Source: Pseudorhodobacter sp. E13 (lineage in GTDB: Bacteria; Pseudomonadota; Alphaproteobacteria; Rhodobacterales; Rhodobacteraceae). Taken from it: DNA of 64,000 bases. Shown piece after piece: positions 1-21,570 of this stretch (position 1 is the first letter of the stretch; each line of letters opens with the position of its first letter). The translations under genes were made by a program, and so were the position numbers. The notes beneath the pieces were generated by a model that did not search any database, was not told the DNA's origin, and was given only the letters and a program-made list of their open reading frames with translations. The DNA is taken from NCBI RefSeq assembly GCF_003991405.1, contig NZ_RPEN01000157.1, positions 124,001-188,000 on the forward strand, read 5' to 3'.

Positions 1-163
1 GCGACTGATCCAAGGCGGCCAGCACGCCTGCGGCTTGCCCGCCGGCCTTTTGGTCCAGCGTGGTGGGGGTTTTGGCAAGCCGCACTTCGCCCGTGGCAGG
101 GTTGAGGATGACAAGATCGGTGAAGGTGCCGCCGACATCGGCGCCTGCGATGAGGTTTGTCAT
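1..163 (-). CDS. Hydantoinase/oxoprolinase A subunit, N-terminal fragment
   Basis: Partial gene: 54 codons are visible from an ATG at 163, and the rest lies beyond the left edge. Residues 7-18 (GADVGGTFTDLV) form the phosphate-binding loop typical of the Hydant_A N-terminal domain found in ATP-dependent N-methylhydantoinase, 5-oxoprolinase and acetophenone-carboxylase-like enzymes. Known members couple ATP hydrolysis to opening a cyclic amide or to carboxylation. It follows the ABC transporter genes on the same strand, with an intergenic repeat between. I infer that it opens a lactam ring made by the upstream hydroxylase and reductase. Whether a B subunit follows cannot be seen. Confidence 0.85.
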   Translation of the reverse strand, partial: MTNLIAGADVGGTFTDLVILNPATGEVRLAKTPTTLDQKAGGQAAGVLAALDQS

Positions 164-206
164 GGTTTTGGACCTTGCTGCATATGGGCAGGCCGGGGGA
201 GGCTGG

Positions 207-263
207 CTGCCTCCCCCGGACCCCCTCCGCGGATATTTGTGCCGAAAAGAAAGCGGGAGGGGG
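207..263 (-). repeat. Dispersed intergenic repeat, copy 1
   Basis: On the minus strand this reads GCTTTCTTTTCGGC, then ACAAATATCC, followed by a GC-rich tract of G runs. It is nearly the same as the copies at 34801 and 54630. It fills the gap between livF and the hydantoinase gene, where no ORF is credible. Confidence 0.6.
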
Positions 264-269
264 GCATTG

Positions 270-965
270 TCAGACCCCAACGTATTTTTGGAATTGCGGG
301 GTGGCGGAGCTGAGGTTTGTGTTTTGCAAGGTTTCGGCCACGGTGCCATGGGTGACGAAGGCGATGTGATCGGCCATGGAAAGCACGGCATCGACGCGTT
401 GTTCGACAAGGATTGTGGCGACGCCGGTGGATTTCAGGGTGAGCAGCGTGTCGCGGATGAGGGTGATCATGGAGGGTTGCAGCCCTTCGGTCGGTTCGTC
501 CAAGAGCAATACGCTGGGTTCAAGGCAGAGGGCGCGGGCGATGGCGAGCATTTGCTGTTCGCCCCCCGACAGGGTGGAGGCGCGTTGCGAGAGCCGTTCG
601 CGCAGGCGTGGGAACAGTGAGAGCACCGCATCGCGGGTTTTTGCGCCCTTTTGCCGGGTCATCAGCCCGATCTGAATATTCTGGGCGACGGTGAGTTCAC
701 CGAACAGGCGGCGGCCTTGGGGCACATAGCCGATGCCATGGCGTGGCACCTCATGCGCGGGCAGGCTGTGGAGCGGTTGGCCGTTCAATGTGATGCTGCC
801 TGCCGTGACGGGAACCTGCCCCATGATGGCGCGCAGCATGGTGGTTTTGCCTGCGCCGTTGCGGCCCATGACGCAGGTTACCTCGCCCGGTTTGGCGGTG
901 AGTGACAGGCCCCGCAGCACTTGCACATTGCCATAGGCGGCGTTGATGGCTGACAGGTCCAGCAT
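270..965 (-). CDS. livF: Branched-chain-type ABC transporter ATP-binding protein (LivF)
   Basis: Cytoplasmic ATPase of 231 residues that energises uptake with the adjacent LivG, LivH and LivM. Walker A GRNGAGKT is at residues 34-41, a LivF-like VPQGRRLF Q-loop at 81-88, signature LSGGE at 132-136 and Walker B VLLLDE at 152-157. An upstream in-frame ATG at 1049 would overlap livG by about 80 bases. The ATG at 965 sits 4 bases past the livG stop and begins the conserved MLDL start, so I chose it. Liv-type (HAAT) transporters carry amino acids, amides, urea and aromatic compounds, so the name does not fix the substrate. Confidence 0.9.
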   Translation of the reverse strand: MLDLSAINAAYGNVQVLRGLSLTAKPGEVTCVMGRNGAGKTTMLRAIMGQVPVTAGSITLNGQPLHSLPAHEVPRHGIGYVPQGRRLFGELTVAQNIQIGLMTRQKGAKTRDAVLSLFPRLRERLSQRASTLSGGEQQMLAIARALCLEPSVLLLDEPTEGLQPSMITLIRDTLLTLKSTGVATILVEQRVDAVLSMADHIAFVTHGTVAETLQNTNLSSATPQFQKYVGV

Positions 966-969
966 GGCC

Positions 970-1677
970 CTAACCCCCCAGATAGGCGGATTGCACCGCC
1001 GGGTTGGCCCGGATTTCGGCGGGGGTGCCGGTGGCAAGTGTTTCGCCAAAGTTCAGCACGGTGATCTGGTCGGCAAGGTCCATGACCACATCCATGTTAT
1101 GTTCGATCAGCAGCACGGTGGTTTTTGGCGTGACCGCGCGGATCAGGGTGTTGAAGGCGTCAATCTCGGCATTCGCGAGGCCTTGGGTCGGTTCATCAAG
1201 TATCAGGAGTTTCGGATCCATCGACAGGCCCATCGCGATTTCCAGCAGGCGTTGGTGGCCGTAGGCCAGAGTGCCTGCGATCTGGTCGGCCATCGGGTCC
1301 AGCCCGACGCGGGCAAGGGCGGCCATGGTATCGGCGCGCAGGGTGCGGCTGCCTTTGCGTTGGATCGCCAGTGCCACGTTATCAAACACCGGCAGATTGG
1401 CGTAGATTGAGGTGATCTGGAATGTATAGGCGATGCCGCGCGCGACCCGTTCATGTGCGGGAAGCTTGGTGATATCGGCCCCGTCAAAGGTGATCCGGCC
1501 TGCGCTGGGCGGGATGCGGCCTGACAGCAGGCTGACAAAGGTGGTCTTGCCTGCGCCATTGGGGCCGATCAGGGCGTGGATTTGCCCGGCCTGCAGGTCG
1601 AAATCCACAGCCTCCACCGCTTTGATACCGTCGTAATGTTTGCTGAGCCCGCGGGCAGACAGGATTATGGCAGCCAT
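970..1677 (-). CDS. livG: Branched-chain-type ABC transporter ATP-binding protein (LivG)
   Basis: Second ATPase of the importer, 235 residues. Walker A GPNGAGKT is at 38-45 and Walker B LLILDEP at 157-163. The signature is LAYGHQR (137-143) rather than LSGGQ, the usual degenerate form in LivG. It overlaps the end of livM by 13 bases, which indicates translational coupling, and livF follows after 4 bases. The length and the early IYANLPVFDNVALA segment are normal for LivG. Function follows the operon: uptake of the ligand of the Tat-exported binding protein encoded at 3567-4847. Confidence 0.9.
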   Translation of the reverse strand: MAAIILSARGLSKHYDGIKAVEAVDFDLQAGQIHALIGPNGAGKTTFVSLLSGRIPPSAGRITFDGADITKLPAHERVARGIAYTFQITSIYANLPVFDNVALAIQRKGSRTLRADTMAALARVGLDPMADQIAGTLAYGHQRLLEIAMGLSMDPKLLILDEPTQGLANAEIDAFNTLIRAVTPKTTVLLIEHNMDVVMDLADQITVLNFGETLATGTPAEIRANPAVQSAYLGG

Positions 1678-2600
1678 TTTGCCCCCCTGTCGCGCAGCCA
1701 GCCCAGAATGCCCTTGGGCGCAAACAGCACAAGCACCAGAAGCGCCGCCCCCACGACAAACAGATGCGCGGTTGTGACGCCCGAGGACAGATCAATCAGA
1801 TAGAACATCAAGAGCGCGCCCAGAAACGGGCCGAGCGTGGTGCCCGCGCCCCCCAGCAGCACATATAGCAGCGGCATGATGGAATATTGTATCGCGGCAA
1901 AGCTGGCCCCGACATAGCCAAACAGCACGCCATAGGCCGCCCCTGCCGCCCCTGCATAAAGCCCGGAGATGACCAGCGCTGTCAGCTTTACCTTGAACGG
2001 GTTATAGCCCAGCATGCGCGAGCGTTCCTCATTCTCGCGCATGGCGACCATGGCGCGACCAAGCCGCGAGCGGACGAGCGCAAGATTGGCCAGCAGGCCC
2101 AGGGCGAACAGGATGAGTGCCGCGAAATAGCGGGGCGTATCGCTTGACAGGTCCAGCGGGCCAAGGCTGCGGGCGGCGCGGGCGATGACAAAGCCTTCAT
2201 CGCCGCGCGTATAGCTGCCGAAATACAGAATGGTCAGATAGCCCGCTTGCGCGAACATCAGTGTGACGATCATGAAGCTGACGCCACCGGTGCGCAGGGC
2301 CAGAACGCCGGTGGCCGCTGCAATCGCACCTCCGGCCAGCAGGCCCAGCACAAGGGCAGGCGCTGCGGGCAGGCCCCACAGCTCTATTCCCAGCCCGGTG
2401 GCATAAAGGCCAGTGGCGAAGAACAGCGCGTGACCGAGCGAGAGCAGGCCAGTGTAGCCAAAGGCGATGTTATAGCCCATGGCGAAGACAGCCAGCACCA
2501 TGATCCGGGCGATATTGGTGTGGTGATAGGGGGGCAGGATGAATTGCGCGGCGAAAAGCAGCGCCAGAACCGCAAGATGAAGGGCGATGGCGCGCGTCAT
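1665..2600 (-). CDS. livM: Branched-chain-type ABC transporter permease (LivM)
   Basis: Inner-membrane permease of 311 residues with about eight to ten hydrophobic segments. The N-terminal phrase MVLAVFAMGYNIAFGYTGLLSLGHALFF (broken here: GYNIAFGYTGLLSLGH at about 42-57) is the LivM hallmark. The cytoplasmic loop NEERSRMLGYN near residue 190 is the ATPase-contacting region. It overlaps livH by 4 bases (ATGA) and livG by 13, so the four transporter genes are read as one unit. The protein forms the transmembrane channel with LivH. Confidence 0.9.
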   Translation of the reverse strand: MTRAIALHLAVLALLFAAQFILPPYHHTNIARIMVLAVFAMGYNIAFGYTGLLSLGHALFFATGLYATGLGIELWGLPAAPALVLGLLAGGAIAAATGVLALRTGGVSFMIVTLMFAQAGYLTILYFGSYTRGDEGFVIARAARSLGPLDLSSDTPRYFAALILFALGLLANLALVRSRLGRAMVAMRENEERSRMLGYNPFKVKLTALVISGLYAGAAGAAYGVLFGYVGASFAAIQYSIMPLLYVLLGGAGTTLGPFLGALLMFYLIDLSSGVTTAHLFVVGAALLVLVLFAPKGILGWLRDRGAKWLP

Positions 2601-3475
2601 GGTTTTGCCCCGAACAGGCCTTGCGGGCGAAACACCAGCACCATGGCCACCAGCAGGGTTGCCAATATCTTTGCCAGCGTTGGCGAAAAGAACACCGAGA
2701 TCACGCCATCCGACAGGCCGATGATCACGGCGGCCAGCAAGGTGCCGCGCAAGCTGCCCAATCCGCCGATGATCACCACGATAAAGGACAGCAGCAGCGG
2801 GTCATGCCCCATCAGGTAATGCGCCTGCTGGATCGGCACGATCAGCACCGCCGCAACCGCCGCCAGCCCCGCGCCCAGCGCGAAAACACCCGCATAAACC
2901 TTGTCGACATTGATGCCAAACGCCCGCGCGGTGTTGCGGTCAAGCTGCGTGGCCCGCATGATCAACCCGGCCCGTGTCCGCGTCATCAACAGCCAGACCG
3001 CCAGCAACAGCAGCATCGCCGCAAGGACAACCGCGATCTTATAGCCGGAATAGCCGAACCATGGCAGTTGCAGCCGCAGGTTGAACGGTGCCTCTACCGG
3101 GCGCGCGTCGGGGCCATAAAACGTCAGCGCGGCTTGCTGAAAGATATAAGACAGCCCGATGGTGGCAACGATTGTCGCCTCCGGGTCATAATTCAACCGC
3201 TTCAGGATCAGCGTATCCGAAAGCGCCGCAATGCCGCCCACGACCAACGGGCAAATGACCAAAGCCGCGGCAAAGGCAAGGGCAGGCGGGCCGGGCATGT
3301 AATGGGTGACAAACCACGCCACCACCGCGCCCAGCATGAAAAACTCGCCATGCGCCACATTCACCACGCGCATCACACCAAAGACCAGCGACAGCCCCAC
3401 CGCCGTCAGCGCCAGAACAGCCGCCATCACGGTGCCTTCCATCAGCGCCAGCAAAAGATAGGGGCCGAAATCCAT
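2597..3475 (-). CDS. livH: Branched-chain-type ABC transporter permease (LivH)
   Basis: Inner-membrane permease of 292 residues, the partner of LivM. Typical LivH features are the GLSLVFGVMRVVNVAHGEFFMLGA stretch (about 27-50, key residues N39, H42, G43, E44) and the loop TQLDRNTARAFGIN near 176-189, which contacts the ATPases. No strong Shine-Dalgarno sequence precedes the ATG. The gap to the upstream binding-protein gene holds a dispersed repeat. Expression may therefore be lower than that of the binding protein, as is common for such transporters. Confidence 0.9.
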   Translation of the reverse strand: MDFGPYLLLALMEGTVMAAVLALTAVGLSLVFGVMRVVNVAHGEFFMLGAVVAWFVTHYMPGPPALAFAAALVICPLVVGGIAALSDTLILKRLNYDPEATIVATIGLSYIFQQAALTFYGPDARPVEAPFNLRLQLPWFGYSGYKIAVVLAAMLLLLAVWLLMTRTRAGLIMRATQLDRNTARAFGINVDKVYAGVFALGAGLAAVAAVLIVPIQQAHYLMGHDPLLLSFIVVIIGGLGSLRGTLLAAVIIGLSDGVISVFFSPTLAKILATLLVAMVLVFRPQGLFGAKP

Positions 3476-3490
3476 TCAGTCGTGCCAGTC

Positions 3491-3560
3491 TTTCATCTTG
3501 GTCCAAATACCTCGGGGGTGAGCCGCATCGCGGCGAGGGGGCAGCGCCCCCTCCCTCCTT
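3491..3560 (+). repeat. Dispersed intergenic repeat, copy 2
   Basis: TTTCATCTTGG followed by CCAAATACCTC and a G-rich part ending in the hairpin GGGGGCAGCGCCCCC. It occupies the junction between the binding-protein gene and livH. On the transcribed minus strand the GC hairpin comes directly after the binding-protein stop codon. Confidence 0.65.
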
Positions 3561-3566
3561 GCCCCA

Positions 3567-4847
3567 TCAAAACGACATCGCGGTATAATCCACATCGCTT
3601 TCATACATCGTCTCGTCGATGGTGGTCTGATGCACCCGCACCAGCTTTCCGCCTTCCACCTTGGAGATGTTCTGACGCCCGAACACCTGATGCAGCTTGC
3701 CGTTAAAGATCTTGGACCCTTGCGGATGCGCTTGGCTTTCCGGCAGCTCGGTCATTGCCTCCAATGCCTCGATCAGCTTCTGGCGGTCGGCACTGCCCTG
3801 ATAGCCTGCCGCTTCCATCCCGGCCTTGATCAGGAACAGCGTTTCCCATGTTGAAAACATATGCGCATAGGTCGACACATCCTTGGCATCCGAAACCGAG
3901 GCGCCATTGTCATCCACGCCCACCGCCGCGCGGTAAAAGGTTTCATGCTCGGACGCGTCGGCTTGTTTCACCCGGCAATGGCCTTCCCAGAAATGGGTGC
4001 CTTCCAGAAATTCCAGGCCGGGGGCGGCGGTATCGACCGCCTCTAGGCTGTCGATGAAGCCAAAGATTTCGGGCCGCGCGCCGCTGCCGTAAAACTCGCC
4101 CAATTCCTTCACAAAGGTCAGCACAGCAGGGCCGACCATGACGTGATACAGAACCTCTGTGTCACGCGGGATTTGCGGCAGATAGCGGGTAAAGCTGGTT
4201 TCGGTCGGCGGCACGGCGATATGCTTGATCACCTCGCCGCCCTGCGCGGCAATCGCGGCGGTGAAAAAGTCACGGTGATCATGGCCAAAGGCATAATCGG
4301 GGAACACCATCGTTACCTTCTTGCCCAGATTATTGGCGACCCATGGCGCCATGGACGAAACCTGCGCCCGCACATCGGTAATGCCGGGCTGCATGGTCCA
4401 GCGGTTCAGCTTGCCACTGGCCACATGATACCCTTCAGAGCAAACCAGATAAGGCACTTTCAACTCTCCCGCGCGGGGGGCAGAGCCGATGACGACATGG
4501 CTGAACAGCGGCCCGAAGATCGCGTCACAACCTGCTTGCGAGGCCAGCTTTTCCACCACTTCCGCGCCGCGCTTCGGGTCGGTGCCATCATCCTCGAACA
4601 CCACTTCCACCGGGCGGCCATTGATGCCGCCTTGGTCGTTCAGCACTTTCAGCGCAGCTTGGGTGGTGCGTTCATACCAGCGGCCATAAGCAGCGCCGAT
4701 CCCTGTGCGGTGCAACTGAAACCCCAGCTTGATGGGCGCAGAAGATTGCGCCTGCACAAATCCGGGCAGTGCCAGGGCCGAAGCGGTGGCCGCCATCCCC
4801 TTCAGCAAGCTGCGGCGGGAGGGGGTGATTCCGATCAGTTTCGTCAT
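3567..4847 (-). CDS. ABC transporter substrate-binding protein, Tat-exported
   Basis: Periplasmic ligand-binding protein of 426 residues in the LivK/Peripla_BP_6 group. The start at 4847 gives a twin-arginine signal, SRRSLLKG, followed by a hydrophobic stretch and a cleavage-like VQAQ. An earlier in-frame ATG at 4919 would bury this signal. The mature part opens with IKLGFQLHRTGIGAAYG, as in amide- and urea-type HAAT binding proteins, and contains the lobe-hinge phrase LNDQGGINGRPVEVVFEDD. Tat export suggests folding before export. The gene precedes livHMGF and follows the unknown membrane protein gene on the same strand. The ligand is unknown, probably the heterocycle handled by the neighbouring enzymes or a relative of it. 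Confidence 0.88.
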   Translation of the reverse strand: MTKLIGITPSRRSLLKGMAATASALALPGFVQAQSSAPIKLGFQLHRTGIGAAYGRWYERTTQAALKVLNDQGGINGRPVEVVFEDDGTDPKRGAEVVEKLASQAGCDAIFGPLFSHVVIGSAPRAGELKVPYLVCSEGYHVASGKLNRWTMQPGITDVRAQVSSMAPWVANNLGKKVTMVFPDYAFGHDHRDFFTAAIAAQGGEVIKHIAVPPTETSFTRYLPQIPRDTEVLYHVMVGPAVLTFVKELGEFYGSGARPEIFGFIDSLEAVDTAAPGLEFLEGTHFWEGHCRVKQADASEHETFYRAAVGVDDNGASVSDAKDVSTYAHMFSTWETLFLIKAGMEAAGYQGSADRQKLIEALEAMTELPESQAHPQGSKIFNGKLHQVFGRQNISKVEGGKLVRVHQTTIDETMYESDVDYTAMSF

Positions 4848-4936
4848 GTCACAATCCTCTGTCTGTTGTGGCTGGCCTTTTTGTCGCTTTGGCCTTGGGC
4901 CAAGAATGAACCGATGCAAGCGGCTTGTCTATTGCT

Positions 4937-6325
4937 TTAGCCACCGGGCGAGGCCAGCAGCCAAAGCCCCAGCACCGTATAGGCCACCATCAGCGCCGTC
5001 AGGGGGAAATGCGCGCGGGCCTGCACCCCTTCGGGCGACAGCCGTAGCGCAAGGATCACCGCAAGGATATGTGCGCCAAGGATAAGGGTGAATTGCGTGT
5101 TCCACACCAGCGTCATGGCCCAGCGATCTGTCAAAAATCCCATCGACACATAAAACGGGGGCAGGCCCAGAAAATCATCACCGCGAAACAGCGGGTCATT
5201 CAGCGCGGCCAGCGTGTATTGCCCGGCGGTCAGCAGCGTCGTCAGGTAATGCGCGGCGTGATAGCCCGCCGAAATCGCCAGAAACGACAGCATGACGGGC
5301 ATAAGGTTGGGGCGTTTTTCAGAGGGCACAGCCCCGCCCGCAAAGGCGAGCACGGGGCGCGATTGCAGCAAGGGACCAAGGCGCAGCGCGGCCAGAATGG
5401 TTGTGGCCGTCAGCGCCCAAGTCACGAGCAAGCCAAGACTGTTCACCCCGATCACGGCAGAGCGCCCGGTAAACTCCAACGGGTTTTCCCCGATCAGGCC
5501 CATATACCAGAACGTCTCTCGCAGCCCGTCAAAGGTCAGCCCGGCCAGCGACAAGGTGACAAAGGCAATGGCCGAGGGCGACAGCGGCGGCATATGCAGC
5601 ACTTGCGTTCCCGGCCAGCCGTATTTCACGGTGGCGCGCGTGCTATCTCGTTCCAGCCAGAAGGGGGCGATTTTGGCCAGAAAGCCGAAATAGACGGTCA
5701 GAAACTCTCCCTGTTCCAGCCAATCCTCGCCTTCCAAGACGCCAAGGGCAAAGACCACGGCCCAATAACTCAGCGCGGCGGTGGCAAGGGTTTGCGGATC
5801 GTCAGGTGACATGGAGACGATGTAGAACCAGAAGAAGCCGAACAGGCCCAGCACGGCGGGCCAATGCCCAAGGCGGGCAAGGCCGATGCCGGTGCTGCGG
5901 CCCAGCAATTGCCGGGTCAGGCGGATCGGGGCTGTCCATGGGTTTACCGCGCGCCACAGGTTGCCAAAGATCATGCAACCCATCGGCAGGGCCACCCATA
6001 CCACGGTCCAGATGGTCAGTGTCAGCAAGTTGTGCATCGGGTCGCGCGCGCCGATAAAGCCGATCAGGACCAGTGCAAGGAACAAGACCCAAGCGGCATA
6101 GCTGCTGGCCATCACGGGGATCAGCACGCGGCGGCGCAGCAGCACCCGCGCCTCCATCCGGGGCAGCAGGTTGGGGCTTGCAGCCAACAGCCCGGTCACC
6201 GCCACGGTGGCCGCCGCCCCCGCCATGTAATAGCCGGTTGGCAGGGTCATGATGATGGAAGGGGGTAGCGCGCAGGCCAGTGCCGCCCCCGGCCAAAGCA
6301 GCGATATGGCCGCCGCGCGCCGCAT
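4937..6325 (-). CDS. Polytopic membrane protein of unknown function
   Basis: A 462-residue protein with a signal-like N-terminus (residues 1-18), then roughly ten hydrophobic segments. The ATG at 6325 shares one base with the TGA of the upstream PF06684-family gene (TGATG), so this start is favoured over the ATG at 6409. Noticeable conserved-looking patches are FGNLWRAVNPW, VLEGEDWLEQGEF and a His-rich GYHAAHYL in a late helix. I recognise no transporter or enzyme signature. Its place inside the cluster suggests a role in moving the substrate or product or in membrane redox, but this is only inference. Confidence 0.75.
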   Translation of the reverse strand: MRRAAAISLLWPGAALACALPPSIIMTLPTGYYMAGAAATVAVTGLLAASPNLLPRMEARVLLRRRVLIPVMASSYAAWVLFLALVLIGFIGARDPMHNLLTLTIWTVVWVALPMGCMIFGNLWRAVNPWTAPIRLTRQLLGRSTGIGLARLGHWPAVLGLFGFFWFYIVSMSPDDPQTLATAALSYWAVVFALGVLEGEDWLEQGEFLTVYFGFLAKIAPFWLERDSTRATVKYGWPGTQVLHMPPLSPSAIAFVTLSLAGLTFDGLRETFWYMGLIGENPLEFTGRSAVIGVNSLGLLVTWALTATTILAALRLGPLLQSRPVLAFAGGAVPSEKRPNLMPVMLSFLAISAGYHAAHYLTTLLTAGQYTLAALNDPLFRGDDFLGLPPFYVSMGFLTDRWAMTLVWNTQFTLILGAHILAVILALRLSPEGVQARAHFPLTALMVAYTVLGLWLLASPGG

Positions 6326-6906
6326 CAGCGCAGGCCGTCCTCGCCCTTTACATCGGCCAGTTCCAGCCCGCCCATGCGCGAATGTACCCGCGCGCCGCGG
6401 GCCATGCACAGGATGAAGGCAATCTCATCCTCGCGCGGGGCATCGGTGACGGATACGGTAAAGGCATCGAAATGGCCGCGCACATAGGCGGCGTTGATAT
6501 GACCCAGCGGCACGTCAAGGCTGGCACCCATGCTGGCCACTTTCATCGCGGATGGCACAATCGCGCGGCTGGTGCCAAGGCGTTCGCGCATGGCATAGCC
6601 GCCGGGCATGTGCCACAGCGCGCCGTGTTCCACCTCGCCCCGGCTGCCGACGATGGCGCCTTTGCCGTAACCGTCGATCCCGTCGCGCCCGCCCATGGCC
6701 GCGATCAGCCGGTCGGTCAGCATCAGCCCAAGGGGTTTGAGATCCTCCATCGCGGGTTGCAGATCGGGTTCATAGCGGCCCGCGAAAGGGTTGGTGACCA
6801 CGGCCACAATGGCGCCCCGGCTGCGTGGCACGTCCGCGCGCGGGCCGCCTTCGTGATGGGTTTCGTCCAGAATGATCTGAAGTTTGCGCAGGGTGAAATC
6901 AGGCAA
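6325..6906 (-). CDS. Amino acid synthesis family protein (PF06684-like)
   Basis: A 193-residue protein. I place the start at a TTG (6906) because AAGGAG lies 7 bases upstream and because family members begin a few residues before the E-T-H-x-E-G-G motif, here ETHHEGG at 15-21. The ATG at 6999 would overlap the upstream gene by 100 bases. Further recognisable parts are YGKGAIVG and GEVEHGA in the middle and AMKVASMGASLDVPLGH later. The family has no settled biochemical function, and its name is historical. It overlaps the UPF0280 gene by 8 bases and shares one base with the membrane-protein start, so these products are co-translated. Confidence 0.82.
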   Translation of the reverse strand: MPDFTLRKLQIILDETHHEGGPRADVPRSRGAIVAVVTNPFAGRYEPDLQPAMEDLKPLGLMLTDRLIAAMGGRDGIDGYGKGAIVGSRGEVEHGALWHMPGGYAMRERLGTSRAIVPSAMKVASMGASLDVPLGHINAAYVRGHFDAFTVSVTDAPREDEIAFILCMARGARVHSRMGGLELADVKGEDGLR

Positions 6907-7720
6907 AGGCAGGCTCCTTTTCAAGGCCGAGATAGCCAATGGTTCGGGATGCAGAGTGCAGGAAAAGCCCCGCCCCCGCAAGCAGGCCATGTGCCGCATA
7001 GGCCCGTGCGCAGGTCTCGCCCGCGGTCAGGGCCTGTGCCACCTCGGCTGGGGTCAGGGGGCCAAGGGCGGTGGTGACAAGGCGGTCACACAGGTCGCTG
7101 TCGGCTTGCAACTGGCGCGCGGGCTGGCGCGTGATCGCGGGATGGCCGGGCAGATCCACCGCATTGGCAATCATGGTGGCGGCGGCATCGGCCATGGCTG
7201 CCGTCCGGGCAAGCACGGTCACGGCATCGGCAATCCCGAAGGAAAAGCTGCGCCCGCCGCGCCCGGATGTGGCGATGCCGCCAATGCCCTCACCATGCCG
7301 CAGCACAACGCGCCCGCCGCCTGCCATGGCCGCCGTCAGGCTGTGGCCGGGGGCCAGATGCAGCGCGATATCGCCGCCATTGTTCACATAGGCCCGGTTC
7401 AGCGCGGTGCCGTGGCACATCGCGGCCAGCACTGCATCGGCCACCGCCCCCGCCACCGCTGCCATCGGTGTGATGAAATCGGGGCGAAACGGGGCGACCG
7501 CCGCCGCCATCGCCTGCGCAATCGGGTCGGTGAACGTCTGCGGGTGCGGGCTGCGCAACTGGGGCAGCTCTGCCGCCAGTCGTGCCAACAGCCCGTCAAA
7601 CCGGGCCTCTGCTTGGCGCATCGCCTGATCGGCATCCGCGCCTTCGGCCCAGACAATCAGGTCAATCGGCCCATGGTGCAAATGTATCCGCCCGCCGGAC
7701 AGCCGCGCCACCTGCATCAC
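6899..7720 (-). CDS. UPF0280 family protein (ApbE-superfamily-like)
   Basis: A 273-residue cytoplasmic protein. Features that match UPF0280 are the N-terminal GPIDLIVWAEG, the central TPMAAVAGAVADAVL (about 121-135), AYVNNGGDIALHL (about 146-158) and SGRGGRSFSFGIADAVTVLA. The G-G-D-I segment resembles the NGGGD flavin/ADP-binding region of ApbE flavin transferases, although true ApbE catalytic residues are not evident. Its biochemical role is unknown. The gene is tied to the PF06684 gene by an 8-base overlap and follows the reductase-like gene after a 76-base gap holding a repeat. Confidence 0.85.
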   Translation of the reverse strand: MMQVARLSGGRIHLHHGPIDLIVWAEGADADQAMRQAEARFDGLLARLAAELPQLRSPHPQTFTDPIAQAMAAAVAPFRPDFITPMAAVAGAVADAVLAAMCHGTALNRAYVNNGGDIALHLAPGHSLTAAMAGGGRVVLRHGEGIGGIATSGRGGRSFSFGIADAVTVLARTAAMADAAATMIANAVDLPGHPAITRQPARQLQADSDLCDRLVTTALGPLTPAEVAQALTAGETCARAYAAHGLLAGAGLFLHSASRTIGYLGLEKEPAFA

Positions 7721-7760
7721 GCGGCCCCTACTGCTGTGGGCCCAAAACCCCGGCCGCTGA

Positions 7761-7793
7761 TTTCATCTTGGCAAAAATACCTACAGTCCCCCG
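7761..7793 (+). repeat. Dispersed intergenic repeat, copy 3 (short)
   Basis: TTTCATCTTGGCAAAAATAC followed by a short C/G run. The first 22 bases match copy 6 near 52117 exactly. The GC-rich tail is reduced. It lies between the reductase-like gene and the UPF0280 gene. Confidence 0.6.
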
Positions 7794-7796
7794 GCC

Positions 7797-9236
7797 TCAT
7801 TTCAGCGGTGCCTTCTGAGGTATAAGCCGAACCCCTGTCGGGTATTCCCCACCCTGCGCTAGCATCTCGGGTAGGGATTTGATCGCCGCCGCATGCCCGC
7901 CCATGGCCAGATAGTCCGTGCGCGGCAAGGTGAATTCCAGCGGCGCCACCAGCGCGGGGGTGGGCACATAGCCAAAGGCCCCCGGCGGCAGTTTGGTGAC
8001 ATCGACCATGAAGGTGATGCCGCCACCCGGCCAGACATAACATTCCGCCCCGCCTGCGGTCAGCCGGGTGGTCCGGGCCTGCACCGACCGCGTCAGCCGC
8101 ACCGGGTTTTGCGTGACACCTGCTCGAAGAGAGCCACCCGCCCCGCCCATGAACAACACCGTGCAGAGCGAGGGTTCGCAGTTTTCATCAATCAGTTTGA
8201 CCGAAGGCAGCAGCGCCTCGGGGATCGGTTTGGGCTGCGGGGTCAGGGCATCATCCAGCTCGTAATAAGCGAATTCTTCGCCTGTGGTGGACACCATAAG
8301 CAGCCGCAAGCCCGCCCGTGCGCCTTTCTTGGGGTTCCAGGGGCCAAGGATATCCAGCGGGTCGCGGATCGTGGTGCCGCCCCAGCCAAGCCCCGGTTCG
8401 GACACGCGGAAATAGCGGCCGGGGGTAGAGCGGCGACCAAGGATCTTGATTCCGGTGTCTTCCCAGCCCAGCACTTTGCCGGCCTGATGTTCCGAGACAA
8501 CGCCAGTGATATGGTCATCGACCACGACCACCTCATCCACCAGCCCCCGCCATTGGTCGGCGAACATGCCGATGGTGGCAGAGCCGCAGCCCACCCGCAT
8601 CCGGTTTTCCGGGCGGCCATCGACGATTGGCGCGTGACCTGCCTGCACGGTGACGGTGCTGCCTTGGTCGATCGTCAGTTCCACCGCTTCGCCGTTGCAC
8701 AGGGCCAGAAGGGTGGCACAGGTGACGCGGCCTTCGGCTTTCTCGCCCCCGGTCAGGTGGTGCACCCCGCCGAGCGAGAGCATCTGGCTGCCATATTCGG
8801 CGGTGGTGACATGGCCGACCGCCTCACTGCCTGCGCGGACGGTGGCGCCTTCGGGGCCGAGAAAGCGGTCGGTGTCAATCTTCACCTTGACGCCGCAATA
8901 GGAAAAGATGGCCTCGGTGACGACAGTCACCATGTCCGCCCCGTCGATTTCAGAGGCGATGATGAAAGGGGCGGGTTTGTAATCGGGGTAGGTGGTGCCA
9001 GAGCCGATGCCGGTGACACGCGTGTCGCTGGGGAACGGCTCTGCCTGCCAGTCGCGGGCGGCGAAGAGGACAATGCGCCCGCCCTCGGTCAGGGTTTTCG
9101 AGAGCAGAACGACGGGATCGGTGCGGATGATGCGGCCTGCGTCATTGGCGTAGCGGTCGCAGGCCCCGGTTTGTCCCGGTGCGATATAGCACATCACCGG
9201 GCAGGCATCGCATCGGATTTTTTCGGGGGTGGTCAT
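7797..9236 (-). CDS. 6-hydroxynicotinate reductase-like iron-sulfur protein
   Basis: A 479-residue protein that resembles the ferredoxin-dependent 6-hydroxynicotinate reductase described from the anaerobic nicotinate pathway of Eubacterium barkeri. The N-terminus holds a cysteine cluster, C9, C12, C16 and C26 (CDACPVMC and GACDRY), suited to an Fe-S centre. More cysteines occur in the interior (FSYCGV, RVGCGSATIG, ENCEPSLC). Glycine-rich FMGGAGGSLRAG lies near residue 370. Homologues are expected to reduce a hydroxylated N-heteroaromatic ring. The gene lies between the molybdenum hydroxylase and the UPF0280/PF06684 pair, all leftward. The exact substrate is inferred only from this neighbourhood. 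Confidence 0.75.
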   Translation of the reverse strand: MTTPEKIRCDACPVMCYIAPGQTGACDRYANDAGRIIRTDPVVLLSKTLTEGGRIVLFAARDWQAEPFPSDTRVTGIGSGTTYPDYKPAPFIIASEIDGADMVTVVTEAIFSYCGVKVKIDTDRFLGPEGATVRAGSEAVGHVTTAEYGSQMLSLGGVHHLTGGEKAEGRVTCATLLALCNGEAVELTIDQGSTVTVQAGHAPIVDGRPENRMRVGCGSATIGMFADQWRGLVDEVVVVDDHITGVVSEHQAGKVLGWEDTGIKILGRRSTPGRYFRVSEPGLGWGGTTIRDPLDILGPWNPKKGARAGLRLLMVSTTGEEFAYYELDDALTPQPKPIPEALLPSVKLIDENCEPSLCTVLFMGGAGGSLRAGVTQNPVRLTRSVQARTTRLTAGGAECYVWPGGGITFMVDVTKLPPGAFGYVPTPALVAPLEFTLPRTDYLAMGGHAAAIKSLPEMLAQGGEYPTGVRLIPQKAPLK

Positions 9237-9263
9237 GGTGCGTGCGGGTCCGGTTGCGGGGAA

Positions 9264-9333
9264 GGGGGCATTCTGCCCCCTCGGCCTTTGGCCTCACCCC
9301 CTGAGGATATTTTTGAATAGATGAAAGCGGGGG
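9264..9333 (-). repeat. Dispersed intergenic repeat, copy 4
   Basis: On the minus strand it reads GCTTTCATCTATTC, then AAAAATATCCTC, followed by two GC hairpins, GGCCAAAGGCC and GGGGGCAGAATGCCCCC. It fills the gap between the molybdenum hydroxylase stop codon and the reductase-like gene. Confidence 0.6.
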
Positions 9334-12021
9334 TCATGTTTTGGCCTTTTCTATTGCGGCAAGGATGCGATGGGGCAGCGCGGGGAGGCGGGTGATTTCG
9401 GCCCCCGTGGCGTGGCGTATCGCGTTGAGAATGGCGGGGGCGGTGGGGATGAGGACGTGTTCGCCCAAGCCTTTGGCACCGTAAGGGCCGTGATCATCGG
9501 GAACCTCGATCAGCAGGCTTTCGATGTCCGGCACATCGCCTGTGGTGGGGATCAGATAGTCATGCAGGTTTTCGGTGCGTCCGGGGAGGTATTCTTCCAT
9601 CAGGGCAAGGCCGATGCCTTGGGCGATGCCGCCTTCGATCTGGCCGGTGGCGAGCAGGGGGTTGATTGTGCGGCCAAGGTCATGCGCGGCGGTGATCTTG
9701 ATCAGTTTAACGGTGCCGAGTGTGGCGTCGACATCCAGTTCCACCAGTTGCGCGCCAAAGCCGTAGACGGCGTAGGGCGTGCCTTGGCCGTTTTCATCGA
9801 GGCCGGTTGTGGGCGGGTCATAGGTTTCTTCGGCCATCAGGGCATAGCCATGCGGGTTGGCGGGCAGTGTGGCCAGTGACAGCGAGGCGGTTTGGGTGCC
9901 TTCGCTTGCGGTAAGTGTGCTGCCGGCAAGCGCCAGTTCTGCACCGTCGCCCATGTTCAGGCGGCGCAGGATATCGGCGCGCAGGGCGCTGCCTGCAGCT
10001 TGGGCGGCGCGGCCGGTGACATAGGTTTGACGGCTGGCCGAGGTTTTGCCGCCATCGGGGGTGAGGAAGGTATCGGGGCCAACAAGTTGGAACTGTGCCA
10101 AAGGCAGGCCCAGCGCATCGGCGGCGATTTGCGTGATGACGGTGTTGGCGCCTTGGCCGATATCGGTGGCCCCTTGGTGCAACATCAATGCCCCTTGTGG
10201 GGTCAGGCCCAGCCGTATGGTGGAAGGGTTGGGCAGGCCGGTATTGCCGCAGCCATACCAGCAGGAGGCGATGCCGACCCCGCGACCTGCTGTCCGTTGG
10301 GCCGTGGCAAGGGCGCGTTGCCAGTGCGGGCGCAGCGCGGTGAGGCATTCGGCAATGCCGGCGGCTTGCATCTGTTGCCCGGTGACGCTGGTTTGGCCGT
10401 TGCGCAGGGCGTTGAGGAGGCGAAATTCCAACCGGTCGATGCCTGCCTGATCGGCGAGCCTGTCATAGATGGTTTCCTGCCAGATCGCCGCCTGTGGCAC
10501 GCCAAAGCCACGAAACGCCCCTGAGATCGGGTTGTTGGTGTGGACGGCATGCGCTTCTGCCCGGTAATGCGGGGTGAAATAGGGGCCGGAGGCGTGGACC
10601 GGCACGCGGTTGGCAACGGTGGGGCCCCAGCTGGCATAGGCCCCGGTGTCGAAGATGCCATCAAACTCCAGCCCCGTGATCCGGCCTTCGGCGTCGCAGC
10701 CGATGCGGCCTGTCATCTGTGCTGGGTGGCGTTTGGTGGTGGAGGCCATGCTTTCAGCGCGGGTATAGGTCATGCGGCAGGGGCGGCCGGTTTTCAGCGT
10801 GACCAAGCCGATTAAGGGTTGCAAGGACACATCAAGTTTGGAGCCAAAACCGCCGCCCACCGCCGAAGGGATGATGCGCAGGCGGTCATGGGGCAGGCCG
10901 AGGACGGTGGCGGTTTCATCGCGGTCCATGATCGGGGCTTGGGTGCAGGCGCGGATGACAAGCACATCGCCATCCATCCATGCAGCCCCTGCTTCGGGTT
11001 CGATATAGGCATGTTCGACGAAGGCGGTTTCGATGCTGGCACTGGCGACATGGGCAGAGGTTGCAAGAGCTGTTGCCACATCGCCGCGCTGCACCCTGCC
11101 TTTGATCAGCGTGTTGCCGGGGCGGGTTTCGTGCAGTTGCGGGGCGCCCGTTGCCATCGCCTCGCGGGGGGAGGTGAGGGCGGGCAGCGGCTGCCATGTG
11201 ATCGGAAAGCTGGTCAGATCGGGTGGGTCGCTGCCGTCTTCATGGGCGACGAGGGCGACAGCCTCGCCGCGCAGGCGGGTCCGGGATTCGGCAAGGGCGG
11301 GTTGGTCGGCAAAGGGGGGAATGGCCCCAAAGCGGTTGAGGCCGGGGATATCGGCTGCGGTAAAGACCTGCGCGCCATGGGTCTTTGCCCAAGCGTCGGT
11401 ATCGCCAAAGGTGAAGCGGGCGGATGGATGGGGGGAGCGGATGGCCCGCACCACAAGCCCGCCGCCTTGCCACAGGTCCGCGCCAAAGATATCGCCTGCA
11501 ACCTTGGCCGCGCCATCCAGCCGGGGGGCGGCGGCACCCACGGCCTTGCCTGCCTTTGGGGCGGGGCTGTCGGGGGCGGGGTTGGTATCGCAGATCGCCT
11601 CGATGATCTTGGTATAGCCGGTGCAGCGGCAAAGCACCCCGCCCAGCGCCGCGCGGGCTTGCTGCGGCGTGGGTTGCGGGGTTTCGGCCAAGAGGGCAGA
11701 GGCCGCCATCAACATGCCGGGGGTGCAGATGCCGCATTGGGCCGCGCCGTGGCGGTGAAAGGCGGCGCGCAGGCGGGTGAGTGTGTCGGTCTGTGCCTCG
11801 ACCGTTTCGACGGATGTGCCTTGCACGCGGGCGGCGGGCATAAGGCAGGCGCAGACGGCGGCCCCATCCACCAGCACGGTGCAGGCCCCGCAATCGCCTG
11901 CATCACAACCGACCTTGGTGCCGCGCAGCCCCGCCTTTTCGCGCAAGAGGTCTGAGAGGCGCAGGCTGGGGGGTGCATCAAATTCGGCAGCTTGGCCGTT
12001 CAGCGAGAACCGGAGTTTCAT
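9334..12021 (-). CDS. Molybdenum hydroxylase, fused 2Fe-2S and molybdopterin-binding chain (xanthine dehydrogenase family)
   Basis: An 895-residue fusion. The N-terminus is a plant-type ferredoxin domain (C39, C44, C47, C59) followed by the second 2Fe-2S domain (C96, C99, C131, C133). From about residue 160 comes the aldehyde oxidase/xanthine dehydrogenase molybdopterin domain, ending with YGAKGLGEH, whose E854 occupies the place of the catalytic base. The family hydroxylates a carbon next to a ring nitrogen using water. The start overlaps the FAD-subunit gene by 4 bases. No signal peptide is seen, so it is cytoplasmic. Context suggests a nicotinate-like or related heterocycle rather than xanthine, since no purine-pathway genes are visible. 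Confidence 0.88.
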
Positions 12022-12860
12022 GTCAGCCCTTTGCAGGTTTGGGCGATGGCGCGGCGCAGCAATTCGGCGGCGGCGCTGTGGCGATAGGCGGCGGTGGCGC
12101 GCAGGTCATCCAAGGGGGAAAGGGCGCTTGCCACCTTGGCCGCATCAAGGGCGCTTGCGGCTTGGTCAAGCGGCAGGCCGATCAACGCGGCTTCGGCGGC
12201 GGGAAGGCGCTGGGCGGTGGCCGAACAGGCCCCGACGGCCAGCGCGGCACTGGTGATCTGGCCTTTTGCGGCGGTCAGGCGCACGGCCACCATGGCGATG
12301 GAAATCACCAGATAGGCCCGCGCACCGAGTTTCAGGAAATGCGAGGCCCCTTCCAAGCCGGGCTTTGGGATCAGGATTGCGGCCAGCACCTCGGCCCGGC
12401 GCAGGGCGGTTTTGCGCGGGCCGATCAGGAAGTCGGCCAGTGGCAGGCTGCGGCTGCCCGATGCGCTGATCAGTTCCACCTGCGCGTCCACGGCCAGCAA
12501 GGGCGGCACCCCATCGGCAGCGGGCGAGGCGTTGCAGAGATTGCCGCCAAGCGTGCCTGCGTTCTGGATTTGCCTGCCACCCACCTCGGCTGCGGCCTGT
12601 TGCAAGGCGCGTAGCGCGGGGGGCAGGGGCGCGCGGGCAATTTCGGCCCAAGTGGTGCAGGCCCCGATCCGCAAGCCGTGATCTGTTTGGGTGATGCCGC
12701 GCAGCGCCGGAATGGCCGTGAGGTCCATCACATCGCCCGAAAGCGTGGCGTTCTGGGTGGCGGGATAGATATCCGTGCCGCCTGCCAACAGCCGCCATGC
12801 GCCACCGCCCAGCTGCGCCAAGGCATCCTTCAAATCGCTGGGGCGGATGAAATCTGTCAT
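12018..12860 (-). CDS. Molybdenum hydroxylase FAD-binding subunit
   Basis: A 280-residue medium subunit that passes electrons from the 2Fe-2S centres to FAD. The FAD-binding loop [10 protein letters not shown] is at about 24-33, and the second signature, [19 protein letters not shown], lies near 110-128. The ATG at 12860 starts the conserved [14 protein letters not shown]. An upstream ATG at 12917 adds an unrelated lead and was not used. The gene is first in the leftward unit, so its promoter should lie between 12861 and 13121. It overlaps the next gene by ATGA. Confidence 0.88.
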
Positions 12861-13121
12861 CAGGTGTCTCGCGGTTTTGGTCGCCAAACAGGGCGCATGG
12901 GGGCTACGCTGCTTCACTGTGCTGTTGAAGGTTGCCGGCTGTCAACGCTGTTGCACCGCCTTGTGGCGCGCGCCGAAACCCTGCACCGGGCAGCGCGGAA
13001 AAAAGCGGCCCGGCTGCCCGCTCTGTCATCAGGGTTTCACAAAATCAGTTGCATGCTTGGGCAGAGCGATGCAACCTTGCGTCATAAGAACATACATAAT
13101 GAGATGTCCAGGGAGGGAATC
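12861..13121. promoter_or_regulatory. Divergent promoter region with inverted repeat
   Basis: A 261-base gap between the leftward heterocycle cluster and the rightward iron transporter, so it must hold two promoters. A perfect 7-base inverted repeat, GTTGCAT and ATGCAAC with 14 bases between (13048-13075), lies about 50 bases before the binding-protein start. A less GC-rich stretch at 13081-13105 follows it. AGGGAGG at 13110-13116 is a good ribosome-binding site for the ATG at 13122. I cannot assign -35/-10 boxes with confidence. Confidence 0.5.
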
Positions 13122-14150
13122 ATGCGTAACTACACACTCGCCGCGTCCGTATTGGCATTGGCCACGGGTCTGTCGGCCACCAGCGCGATGGCGGCTGGCA
13201 AGTTGAACCTCTATTGCTCGGCGCAGGAAGATTGGTGCCAGTTGATGGCGCGCAGCTTTGAAGAGGCGACGGGCATTGATGTGGATATGACCCGCAAATC
13301 CTCGGGTGAGACATTTGCCCAGATCAAGGCCGAAGAAGTGAACCCGAAGGGCGATGTGTGGTGGGGCGGCACCGGTGATCCCCATCTGCAAGCCGCCGAG
13401 GAGGACCTGACGGAACCCTATGTTTCCGCGATGCGCGACCAGTTGCACGACTGGGCGATCAAGCAGGCCACTTCGGCAGGTGACAAGACCATTGGCATTT
13501 ATTCCGGCGCGCTGGGCTTTGGCTATAACACCAAGCTTTTGGCCGATAACAACCTGCCCGCGCCTACCTGCTGGGAAGACCTGACCAAGCCGGAATTCAA
13601 GGGCCATGTGCAGATGGCAAACCCGAATTCGTCGGGCACCGCCTATACCACGCTGGCGACGATGGTGCAGTTGTTTGGCGAAGAAAAGGGCTTTGACTAC
13701 ATGAAGCGCCTGCATGCCAATATCAACCAATACACCAAATCCGGCTCTGCCCCGATCAAGGCAGCGGGCACGGGCGAAACCACCGTCGGCATTGTGTTCA
13801 TGCATGATTCAGTGGCGCAAACCGTTGCGGGCTTTCCGGTTGTGACCGTGGCGCCATGCGAAGGCACCGGCTATGAAATCGGGTCGATGTCGATCATCAA
13901 AGGCGCGCGCAACATGGATGAGGCCAAGCAGTTCTATGACTGGGCGCTGAGCGCCGAGGCGCAGAACCTTGCGTTGCAGGTCAACGCGTTTCAGGTGGCC
14001 TCGAACAAGGCTGCAACCTCGTCCGACAAGGCACCGAACATGGATCTGATCAAGCTGATCGACTATGATTTCAAGCTTTACGGTTCCTCGGATGAGCGCA
14101 AGCGCCTGCTGGAAAAGTGGGACAATGAAGTCTCTACGTTGCCGCAGTAA
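13122..14150 (+). CDS. ABC transporter substrate-binding protein, ferric-iron type
   Basis: A 342-residue periplasmic protein. The ATG at 13122 has AGGGAGG upstream and begins a Sec signal peptide (about 1-24, ending SAMAAG). The mature N-terminus KLNLYCSAQEDWCQ and the segment YSGALGFGYNTKLL fit the FbpA/AfuA-like extracellular binding protein group 1. Longer readings starting at 12678 run through the intergenic region and are not credible. It is the first of three rightward genes with a permease and an ATPase. Iron(III) is the usual ligand, but phosphonate and polyamine binding proteins look similar, so the ligand is not certain. Confidence 0.82.
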   Translation: MRNYTLAASVLALATGLSATSAMAAGKLNLYCSAQEDWCQLMARSFEEATGIDVDMTRKSSGETFAQIKAEEVNPKGDVWWGGTGDPHLQAAEEDLTEPYVSAMRDQLHDWAIKQATSAGDKTIGIYSGALGFGYNTKLLADNNLPAPTCWEDLTKPEFKGHVQMANPNSSGTAYTTLATMVQLFGEEKGFDYMKRLHANINQYTKSGSAPIKAAGTGETTVGIVFMHDSVAQTVAGFPVVTVAPCEGTGYEIGSMSIIKGARNMDEAKQFYDWALSAEAQNLALQVNAFQVASNKAATSSDKAPNMDLIKLIDYDFKLYGSSDERKRLLEKWDNEVSTLPQ

Positions 14151-14155
14151 GCCCT

Positions 14156-16366
14156 GTGCGCATTGCCACAAGTGAAAGCACCCGCCACCCGGTTTTGATG
14201 TTCTGGATCATTGCCGGGTGGGTCGGGTATGTCCTCCTCCCCTGGTATGGGGTGGAGGATTTTTACACCTTTGAATGGCTGTTTGACGGCTATCCCCTGC
14301 ATTCCGACTATGCCCCTGCGGCGGCGCTCATTGCGCAGGGAAAAAAGCTGTGGCTGGCCCCGATGCTGCTGGCGTTGCTGGCACCTTTGGTCGTGATGCG
14401 CAGGCGCAAGACGGACCCGCTTTATGGCAAGGTGCTGATAATCGCGGGCGGCTTTGGCTTTGCGTGGATGATCGCGCAAGGCTTGGGCATTGGGTTGCGC
14501 GGCTATAACTATGCCTGGATGACGGCGCTGTTCGGTGAATTGGGCGACCGGCAGTTCGGCATGGGTTACGGCGCGCTGATCGTGGCCTCGTCTTTTCTGT
14601 TTCTGTTCACCCAAGGCATCGCGGCGCGCGGTGCGGTGAATGGCGATGTGTTTGTGACGGCGGCGATTGGCGGTGTGATCGCGGTTGTGTCGATCTTTGT
14701 ATTTTTCCCCATCGTCAAGATGCTGGGTGCAGCCTTTGTGTCGGATGATGGCGGCTATTCGATTATCGAGTTTTTCGGCAAATTCGTGGATCGGCGCATC
14801 TGGGGCCTTGGGTGCTTTAGCGGCACAAGCTGCGGTGCGGCGTGGAATTCGCTGTTCCTTGCTGTGCTGGTCGGAGTGCTGACAACGGTTCTGGGGCTGA
14901 TTTTCGCGCTGGTGCTGACCCGCTCCGGCTTTCGGTTCAAGCAAAGCCTGCGGGCGTTGACGGTGCTGCCCATCATCACCCCGCCTTTCGTGATCGGGCT
15001 TGCGCTGATCTTGCTGTTCGGGCTGTCGGGCACCGTGACGCAATGGGTGGCCGAGGTGTTCGGCATGCAGCCGACGCGCTGGCTTTATGGGCTGCCGGGG
15101 GTTCTGATTGCGCAGGTTCTGGCCTTTACCCCGATTGCCTTTCTGGTGCTGATCGGTGTGGTCGAAGGCGTTTCCCCCAGCATGGAGGAAGCCGCGCAAA
15201 CCCTGCGGGCGAACCGTTGGCAGACCTTTCGCACCGTGTCCTTGCCCCTGATGCGGCCCGGTCTGGCAAATGCGTTCCTGCTGGGCTTCATCGAAAGCAT
15301 GGCCGATTTCGGCAACCCCTTGGTGCTGGGTGGCAATTTCGATGTGCTGAGCACCGAGATTTTCTTTGCCATTGTCGGCGCGCAATATGACCAAAGCCGT
15401 GCGGCCATTCTGGCGATGATCCTGCTGGGGTTCACGCTGGGTGCGTTTTATTTGCAGCGGTTCTGGCTGGGCAAGAAAAGCTATACCACGGTGACGGGCA
15501 AAGGCGATGCGGGGGTGCATCCGCAGATGCCGCTGGGCTTGGCGCTGCCGGTCTATGTGATCGCGGGGCTGTGGGGGCTGTTTACGATCGCGGTCTATGT
15601 CTACATCGTTTACGGGTCTTTCGTGCAGCTTTGGGGCGTGGATAACAGCCTGACGCTGACGCATTACAAAACCGCCTTCGCGCTGAGTTGGGGCGACAAT
15701 GGCTTGCGCTGGACCGGGTCGGCCTGGGATAGTTTCTGGACGACGATCATGATCGCCACCATCGCGGCACCGTTTACGGCGGCGGTGGGGCTGATTACCG
15801 CTTATCTGCTGACGCGGCAGAATTTCGCGGGCAAAAAGTCGTTCGAGTTTGGCACCATGCTGTCCTTTGCCATTCCCGGCACCGTGATCGGGGTCGCCTA
15901 TATTCTGGCTTTCAACGTCCCCCCGATTGAGATTACGGGCACCGGTATCATTCTGGTGGTCAGCTTTGTGTTCCGCAACATGCCGGTGGGCGTGCGTGCA
16001 GGCATCGCGTCCATGAGCCAGCTGGACAAATCGCTGGATGAATCGTCGCTGACCCTGGGGGCGAATTCTTGGCAGACCTTCCGGCTGGTCATCCTGCCCT
16101 TGCTGCGGCCTGCCATTCTGGCGGCGCTGGTTTACAGCTTCGTGCGGGCGATGACGGCGATTTCGGCGGTGATCTTCCTTGTGTCGGCGCGCTATGACAT
16201 GGCGACCAGCTATATCATCGGGCGGGTGGAAAACAACGATTACGGTCTGGCGATTGCCTATTCGACGGCGCTGATTTTCGTGATGCTGTTTGCGGTTGGG
16301 ATGCTGCAACTGGCGGTTGGCCGCACGAAAATCGGGCGGCGCAGTTCACATTCTGGGGGGCATTAA
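14156..16366 (+). CDS. ABC transporter permease with two fused membrane domains, ferric-iron type
   Basis: A 736-residue inner-membrane protein from a GTG start 5 bases after the binding-protein stop. It has two binding-protein-dependent transport domains. Their EAA-type loops are EEAAQTLRANRWQTFRTV (near residue 343) and DESSLTLGANSWQTFRLV (near 625), each followed by a conserved LPLxRP. This duplicated layout is that of FbpB/AfuB permeases, and the N-terminal extra membrane segments are typical of the alphaproteobacterial version. An internal ATG at 14198 is a possible start but lacks a ribosome-binding site. Confidence 0.85.
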   Translation: MRIATSESTRHPVLMFWIIAGWVGYVLLPWYGVEDFYTFEWLFDGYPLHSDYAPAAALIAQGKKLWLAPMLLALLAPLVVMRRRKTDPLYGKVLIIAGGFGFAWMIAQGLGIGLRGYNYAWMTALFGELGDRQFGMGYGALIVASSFLFLFTQGIAARGAVNGDVFVTAAIGGVIAVVSIFVFFPIVKMLGAAFVSDDGGYSIIEFFGKFVDRRIWGLGCFSGTSCGAAWNSLFLAVLVGVLTTVLGLIFALVLTRSGFRFKQSLRALTVLPIITPPFVIGLALILLFGLSGTVTQWVAEVFGMQPTRWLYGLPGVLIAQVLAFTPIAFLVLIGVVEGVSPSMEEAAQTLRANRWQTFRTVSLPLMRPGLANAFLLGFIESMADFGNPLVLGGNFDVLSTEIFFAIVGAQYDQSRAAILAMILLGFTLGAFYLQRFWLGKKSYTTVTGKGDAGVHPQMPLGLALPVYVIAGLWGLFTIAVYVYIVYGSFVQLWGVDNSLTLTHYKTAFALSWGDNGLRWTGSAWDSFWTTIMIATIAAPFTAAVGLITAYLLTRQNFAGKKSFEFGTMLSFAIPGTVIGVAYILAFNVPPIEITGTGIILVVSFVFRNMPVGVRAGIASMSQLDKSLDESSLTLGANSWQTFRLVILPLLRPAILAALVYSFVRAMTAISAVIFLVSARYDMATSYIIGRVENNDYGLAIAYSTALIFVMLFAVGMLQLAVGRTKIGRRSSHSGGH

Positions 16367-21392: not shown

Positions 21393-21430
21393 CGGGTTGC
21401 CATTGCAATTGCGATGGTTTTAGGTGGGCG

Positions 21431-21566: not shown

Positions 21567-21570
21567 GTTC

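Follow-up and report, generated by a model that had tools for sequence, protein, structure and literature searches.

Within the 64,000-nucleotide window analysed here, part of a 313-kb contig of Pseudorhodobacter sp. E13, the first 12,860 positions carry a leftward operon that probably serves the aerobic use of nicotinate by a reductive route through 1,4,5,6-tetrahydro-6-oxonicotinate (THON), with an ATP-dependent lactamase, HyuAB, in place of the enamidase. Twelve minus-strand genes, packed tightly or overlapping, run from position 12860 to position 1; the last of them, encoding HyuA, is cut by the window start, and a thirteenth, encoding HyuB, adjoins it just outside the window. The gene order, strand and families given by a first-pass annotation of the letters alone were confirmed by Pfam and NCBIfam matches and by direct reading. 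In the proposed route, a Liv-type importer would take up the pyridine carboxylate, the molybdenum hydroxylase XdhF/XdhLS would hydroxylate it to 6-hydroxynicotinate, and Hnr, an Fe-S protein that would be matured by UPF0280, would reduce 6-hydroxynicotinate to THON. HyuAB would then activate the lactam with ATP and hydrolyse it to aminomethylene-glutarate, which would yield formylglutarate and ammonia. What was observed are the genes, their conserved order, the mutual exclusivity of HyuB and enamidase, and the pairing of Hnr with UPF0280.

One ring opener per Hnr genome

Hnr, the 6-hydroxynicotinate reductase-like protein of the operon (7797 to 9236, minus strand), was found in 68 of 385 genomes drawn evenly from the class of the window (69 matches less one of 34 amino acids, in G389). 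Whole-genome searches returned a single ring opener for each of the 68, namely an orthologue of HyuB in 39 and an orthologue of the enamidase in 29, with no genome having both and none having neither. Adding 12 relatives to form an Hnr genome set of 80 brought the tally to 46 HyuB and 34 enamidase genomes (80/80), again with none in which both or neither were present. Left out of the searches for openers and for PF06684 were G389 and two genomes, G016 and G022, whose genes were partial or contained stops. Across the 80 genomes, orthologues were 64-100% (HyuB) and 67-87% (enamidase) identical to the query. The limits of 64% and 67% were chosen after the results were known; exclusivity is independent of them, because the best HyuB relative in the 34 enamidase genomes reached at most 46% identity and the best enamidase relative in the 46 HyuB genomes at most 39%. 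The restriction of HyuB orthologues to genomes with Hnr (0 of 317 Hnr-negative genomes at 64% or more) does depend on the 64% limit, because nine of the 317 harbor relatives at 56-62%.

The neighbouring amidohydrolase of many Hnr clusters is an enamidase, matching the solved structure 2vun at 1.8e-105. No relative of this enzyme was detected in the window's genome at E 1e-40 or better, so that the lack of an enamidase noted at first pass in the sequence extends to the whole genome at this threshold, with HyuAB present instead. The enamidase appears to be replaced, not simply missing, and this is the distinctive feature of the operon.

Exclusivity was also apparent at the level of gene neighbourhoods. 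Among the 80 named loci (those nearest the query, the best 80 of 480 confirmed), HyuAB lay within 10 kb of Hnr in 31, the enamidase in none and neither in 49. The 67 class loci, each with about 9 kb of flank on either side of Hnr, gave 21 with HyuAB close by, 15 with the enamidase, 31 with neither and none with both, and the seven plasmid loci used out of 26 plasmid matches gave five, two and none with both. The flanks of the class loci take in 21 of 38 HyuB genes and 15 of 29 enamidase genes, many openers lying farther from Hnr, yet exclusivity holds. In a 75-row tree of Hnr, from which five of the 80 genomes were left out (G011, G012 and G017, without a locus; G052 and G255, partial), the opener types interleave, with at least eight changes, three of which are forced by strongly supported branches. 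Both types occur within the genus of the window, G008 being of the enamidase type and G000 and G002-G006 of the HyuAB type.

As to the wider distribution of Hnr, a phylum sample of 160 genomes contained 11 with the gene, all from the same class as the window; the single example outside the class, on the Comamonadaceae plasmid L125, is of the enamidase type. A separate observation concerns G106:C8:32012-33163, where an enamidase orthologue (76% identity) stands in a genome that has neither Hnr nor UPF0280, reflecting either loss or an assembly gap.

HyuA, predicted to be the ATP-binding subunit of the proposed lactamase, comprises 677 residues in all, with its 5′ end at 1 to 163 of the window (minus strand) and the remainder at L002 18130-20000; HyuB follows at L002 16422-18137. 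Their best NCBIfam matches are the alpha and beta subunits of caprolactamase, at 458 and 302 bits. HyuAB is not caprolactamase itself, because these scores are far short of the cut-offs (1000) of the equivalog models. Asp9 and Asp287 of HyuA are invariant in 54-57 relatives, and His112, Asp115 and His137 of HyuB in 35, the spacing of the latter (His-x2-Asp-x21-His) being that of the CapB metal site (PMC8453981). The fourth CapB ligand, Asp41, could not be placed in HyuB, which has Tyr54 at the corresponding spacing. By predicted fold, ATP-site aspartates and metal site, HyuAB thus belongs, on sequence grounds, to the ATP-dependent lactamase family that includes caprolactamase, oxoprolinase and hydantoinase. 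Given this resemblance to an ATP-dependent caprolactamase, HyuAB most likely takes the place of the enamidase and uses ATP to open the reduced lactam. It would differ from CapAB, with which it shares the ATP-site aspartates and the His/Asp/His metal ligands (PMC8453981), in acting on a six-membered unsaturated lactam carboxylate, its proposed substrate. No open-licence paper pairing a hydantoinase with an enamidase was found, which, given that scope, is weak evidence of absence; a fungal transcriptome study, PMC6346535, names both oxoprolinase and 6-hydroxynicotin-.

Hnr and UPF0280

The assignment of Hnr draws on its relatives. The protein had no Pfam or NCBIfam match at 0.001, phmmer against the PDB gave a best E of 0.87, and the predicted structure was poor (pLDDT 66), with a best Foldseek E of 0.47. 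It is 59.6-79.3% identical to the products of 26 plasmid-borne genes, most of the annotated ones being named 6-hydroxynicotinate reductase and some having nicA/nicB adjoining; the cysteines of its N-terminal CxxCxxxCx(9)C motif are invariant among relatives. In some class loci, among them L123 (19537-20607), the Hnr cluster also includes a gene for a Rieske-type ring dioxygenase.

UPF0280 (6899 to 7720, minus strand; NF003322, 332 bits versus a cut-off of 290) accompanies Hnr with great regularity. Strong matches occur in 68 of the 385 class genomes, and these are exactly the 68 that have Hnr, so that the co-occurrence check proposed with the first-pass annotation came out strongly positive. 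Six weak matches (5e-7 to 7e-4) were found among the 317 Hnr-negative genomes, and matches below the cut-off in two methanogen controls. The UPF0280 gene is immediately downstream of Hnr in 78 of the 80 named loci, one of the others being a contig that ends early and one a real miss (L119), and in 64 of the 67 class loci, the contig ending early in the remaining 3. In L119 (2689-5639), the sole such named locus, the genes after Hnr are convergent transporter genes, and the 5.7-kb contig contains no UPF0280.

Profile comparison suggests that UPF0280 is a remote homologue of ApbE, the flavin transferase (hhalign 94.4%, E 9.4e-8). The NxGGD, ATSG and AD-x-x-AT motifs are common to both, and D178 and T182 of the last, aligned with the ApbE motif, are kept in 146 of 146 UPF0280 relatives; we take this Asp and this Thr to be Mg ligands. 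UPF0280 differs from ApbE in having neither signal peptide nor lipobox, and most members fall below or outside the Pfam model: 10 of 24 match PF02424 at E 10 or less, the best at 7e-4, and the window's own protein does not.

The flavinylation target is given in PMC12052999 as D-x-x-[S/T]-G-A-[S/T]. A motif scan found this exact sequence neither in Hnr nor in eight other scanned operon proteins, which rules out an exact ApbE target motif in Hnr. What Hnr has instead is D241-x-x-T244-G-V-x-[S/T]248 (G in 146 of 152 sequences, S in 123 and T in 29), an imperfect counterpart of the target of ApbE systems in which the hydroxyl residue comes one place later and the resemblance is suggestive only. 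A conserved G-S-A-T stretch of Hnr was rejected as a flavin site, T221 being A in 3 of 18 rows. The Hnr of Eubacterium barkeri reportedly has a covalently bound flavin and shows activity with one kind of polypeptide only. UPF0280 may flavinylate Hnr. Tentatively, as something possible but short of probable, we propose jointly that UPF0280 is a cytoplasmic ApbE-type transferase dedicated to Hnr, placing the flavin at or near D241-[S/T]248, and that the enamidase has been displaced repeatedly by HyuAB acting as an ATP-dependent THON lactamase.

Instead of a maturase, UPF0280 could be a subunit of Hnr or an FAD hydrolase, its co-occurrence reflecting an enzyme complex, and we regard this as a real possibility, if not a probable one. 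Some ApbE proteins hydrolyse FAD according to PMC4767422 and PMC12052999. The pairing of the two genes is as perfect as would be expected of a subunit, and the exact flavinylation motif is absent from Hnr. The activity said to reside in one polypeptide kind with covalent flavin in E. barkeri speaks against a subunit or hydrolase role. UPF0280 was named in no open-licence paper found, weak evidence of absence given that scope.

Hydroxylases, PF06684 and the candidate substrate

XdhF (12018 to 12860, minus strand; PF00941 6.6e-42, PF03450 8.8e-17), whose start was set by homology with a 276-residue Fuscovulum protein, is the FAD subunit of a molybdenum hydroxylase and a putative nicotinate 6-hydroxylase. 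XdhLS (9334 to 12021, minus strand; PF00111, PF01799, PF02738, PF20256) is its fused 2Fe-2S and molybdopterin subunit, in which direct reading revealed both 2Fe-2S motifs and, near the C-terminus, a GLGE motif. The E. barkeri nicotinate dehydrogenase subunits (3hrd) are among its 58 PDB matches, although not the top one. Homologues of XdhLS at 45% identity or more lie within 10 kb of Hnr in 78 of the 80 named loci, and the operon order is conserved far beyond chance.

The protein of family PF06684 (AA_synth, DUF1185; 6325 to 6906, minus strand; 1.6e-65) resembles the structures 3byq and 2qtp in both its sequence and its predicted fold. Its gene was found within 10 kb of Hnr in 71 of the 80 named loci, and the family in 71 of the 80 Hnr genomes; the nine without it are all of the HyuB type, and all 34 enamidase genomes keep it (Fisher p 0.0086 for loss versus opener type, uncorrected for kinship). 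PF06684 is thus usual yet dispensable. The course suggested at first pass, from import through hydroxylation and reduction to ATP-driven lactam opening, coincides with our best reading, and its co-occurrence prediction was positive, except that PF06684, counted there as part of the route, is not needed. A chorismate mutase-like fold, which RidA-type enamine hydrolases also have, might make PF06684 the ring opener or an enamine hydrolase, leaving something else to HyuAB. Its presence near Hnr in most named loci and the Bacillus chorismate mutase-like fold described in PMC2954203 agree with such a role, but the protein is dispensable just where the enamidase is absent, and its well-predicted structure (pLDDT 85.9) matched only DUF1185 structures in Foldseek at E 0.001. 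We therefore consider this highly improbable, and PF06684 as an essential ring opener is ruled out by the nine genomes that lack it. The amino-acid synthesis label of the family rests on that fold and on the branched-chain transport genes found nearby (PMC2954203); the Liv-type genes beside Hnr suggest that the label is misleading for these members. Away from Hnr, a second enamidase-like amidohydrolase (38-43% identity) recurs 76-110 bp from a PF06684 gene (G324:C1:1039468-1041253, G234:C1:100028-101812, G402:C2:602390-604129 and G405:C1:344089-345836), and from these four pairs the family would seem to tend to accompany cyclic-amide hydrolases.

We infer the substrate and every reaction of the route, and several observations weigh against it. 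For this operon, as for HyuAB-type clusters in general, no substrate, growth or enzyme data were found, and the top PDB matches of XdhLS are aldehyde oxidoreductases. No opener lies in the flanks of 49 of the 80 named and 31 of the 67 class loci. Shuffled labels need 23.7 changes on the Hnr tree versus the eight counted, so that opener type is largely inherited (clustered yet swapped), and a sign test cannot reach significance (p 0.25) because only three independent swaps fall on strongly supported branches. The HyuB relatives at 56-62% in nine Hnr-negative genomes imply that close HyuAB kin do other things, and one Hnr-negative genome, G106, has an enamidase.

The HyuAB type might also handle a different but similar N-heterocycle, such as another pyridine or hydroxypyridine carboxylate, with Hnr and UPF0280 shared and the opener differing as the lactam differs. 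In keeping with this, the opener type correlates with a second PF06684 paralogue, present in all 15 enamidase loci of the class set and in 1 of its 21 HyuAB loci, and HyuAB-type families are versatile (PMC8453981). The hydroxylases point the other way. The window type accompanies either opener (17 HyuAB, 14 enamidase and 27 with neither nearby among the 67 class loci), and NicAB-type nicotinate dehydrogenase genes replace it beside Hnr together with HyuAB in L124 and L128 and with the enamidase in L125 and L135 (two HyuAB and one enamidase among the seven plasmid loci, one enamidase among the class loci). That each kind of hydroxylase occurs with both openers argues for, without proving, one common substrate, nicotinate. 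As the opener types interleave on the Hnr tree as well, we think a separate substrate unlikely. A search of the window's genome for a NicAB-like gene gave nothing beyond partial matches of 30-40%.

Remaining genes and known relatives of the route

The putative importer comprises a Tat-type periplasmic binding protein of the Peripla_BP_6 kind (3567 to 4847; PF13458 3.8e-50), whose start, TPSRRSLLKG, contains the twin-arginine motif by direct reading, LivH-type (2597 to 3475) and LivM-type (1665 to 2600) permeases (both PF02653), and LivG-type (970 to 1677; PF00005, PF12399) and LivF-type (270 to 965; PF00005) ATPases, all on the minus strand. Between the binding protein and PF06684 lies a multi-pass membrane protein (4937 to 6325, minus strand) outside known families, with no Pfam or NCBIfam match, whose homologues travel with, and stand beside, SBP-Liv genes. 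As with UPF0280 and PF06684, we infer whatever role it has in the route. Divergent to the operon (12678-16366, plus strand), a PF13343 solute-binding protein and a permease containing two stretches of PF00528 probably form an iron-type importer. Farther along the plus strand are an FMN riboswitch (RF00050, 107 bits, 21428-21569) upstream of a 173-residue open reading frame (21629-22150), and the small RNA SorX (RF02784, 70 bits, 58532-58607), described in Rfam as a singlet-oxygen response RNA.

The description of this pathway as undescribed does not hold, since an Hnr cluster for the reductive nicotinate route is already in print (PMC3511419), and a wholly unknown route is thereby ruled out. 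In that paper, strain SG-6C grows on nicotinate and 6-hydroxynicotinate and has a homologue 42% identical to the Hnr of E. barkeri; the cluster, kept in Azorhizobium caulinodans and other Bradyrhizobiaceae, covers the first three steps and also encodes two unknown proteins and a putative ABC transporter. The assignment of the three steps there came from a BLAST comparison with the E. barkeri cluster, in which an enamidase is the third enzyme. The Azorhizobium caulinodans/Bradyrhizobium/SG-6C cluster (PMC3511419) thus has Hnr, hydroxylase, ABC transporter, two conserved unknown proteins and a proposed aerobic THON route in common with the window. It differs from the window, which has HyuAB and no enamidase. 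The nicotinate fermentation of E. barkeri likewise shares hydroxylation, Hnr reduction and lactam opening; it is reported to be anaerobic and ferredoxin-linked, with a four-subunit hydroxylase, an enamidase and later steps through 2-methyleneglutarate, steps not visible in the window. The route is known and the variant new, with nicotinate as the presumed substrate.

A vaguely annotated operon that is widespread in Alphaproteobacteria (68/385 sampled genomes) thereby becomes a concrete pathway with testable enzymes, and the alternation of enamidase and HyuAB is a clear-cut instance in which one metabolic slot is filled by either of two unrelated enzymes, one hydrolytic and the other paid for with ATP. 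UPF0280 gains a specific proposed function and partner. If the joint proposal is true, functions would be given to families that have had none, including UPF0280, which also occurs in methanogens.

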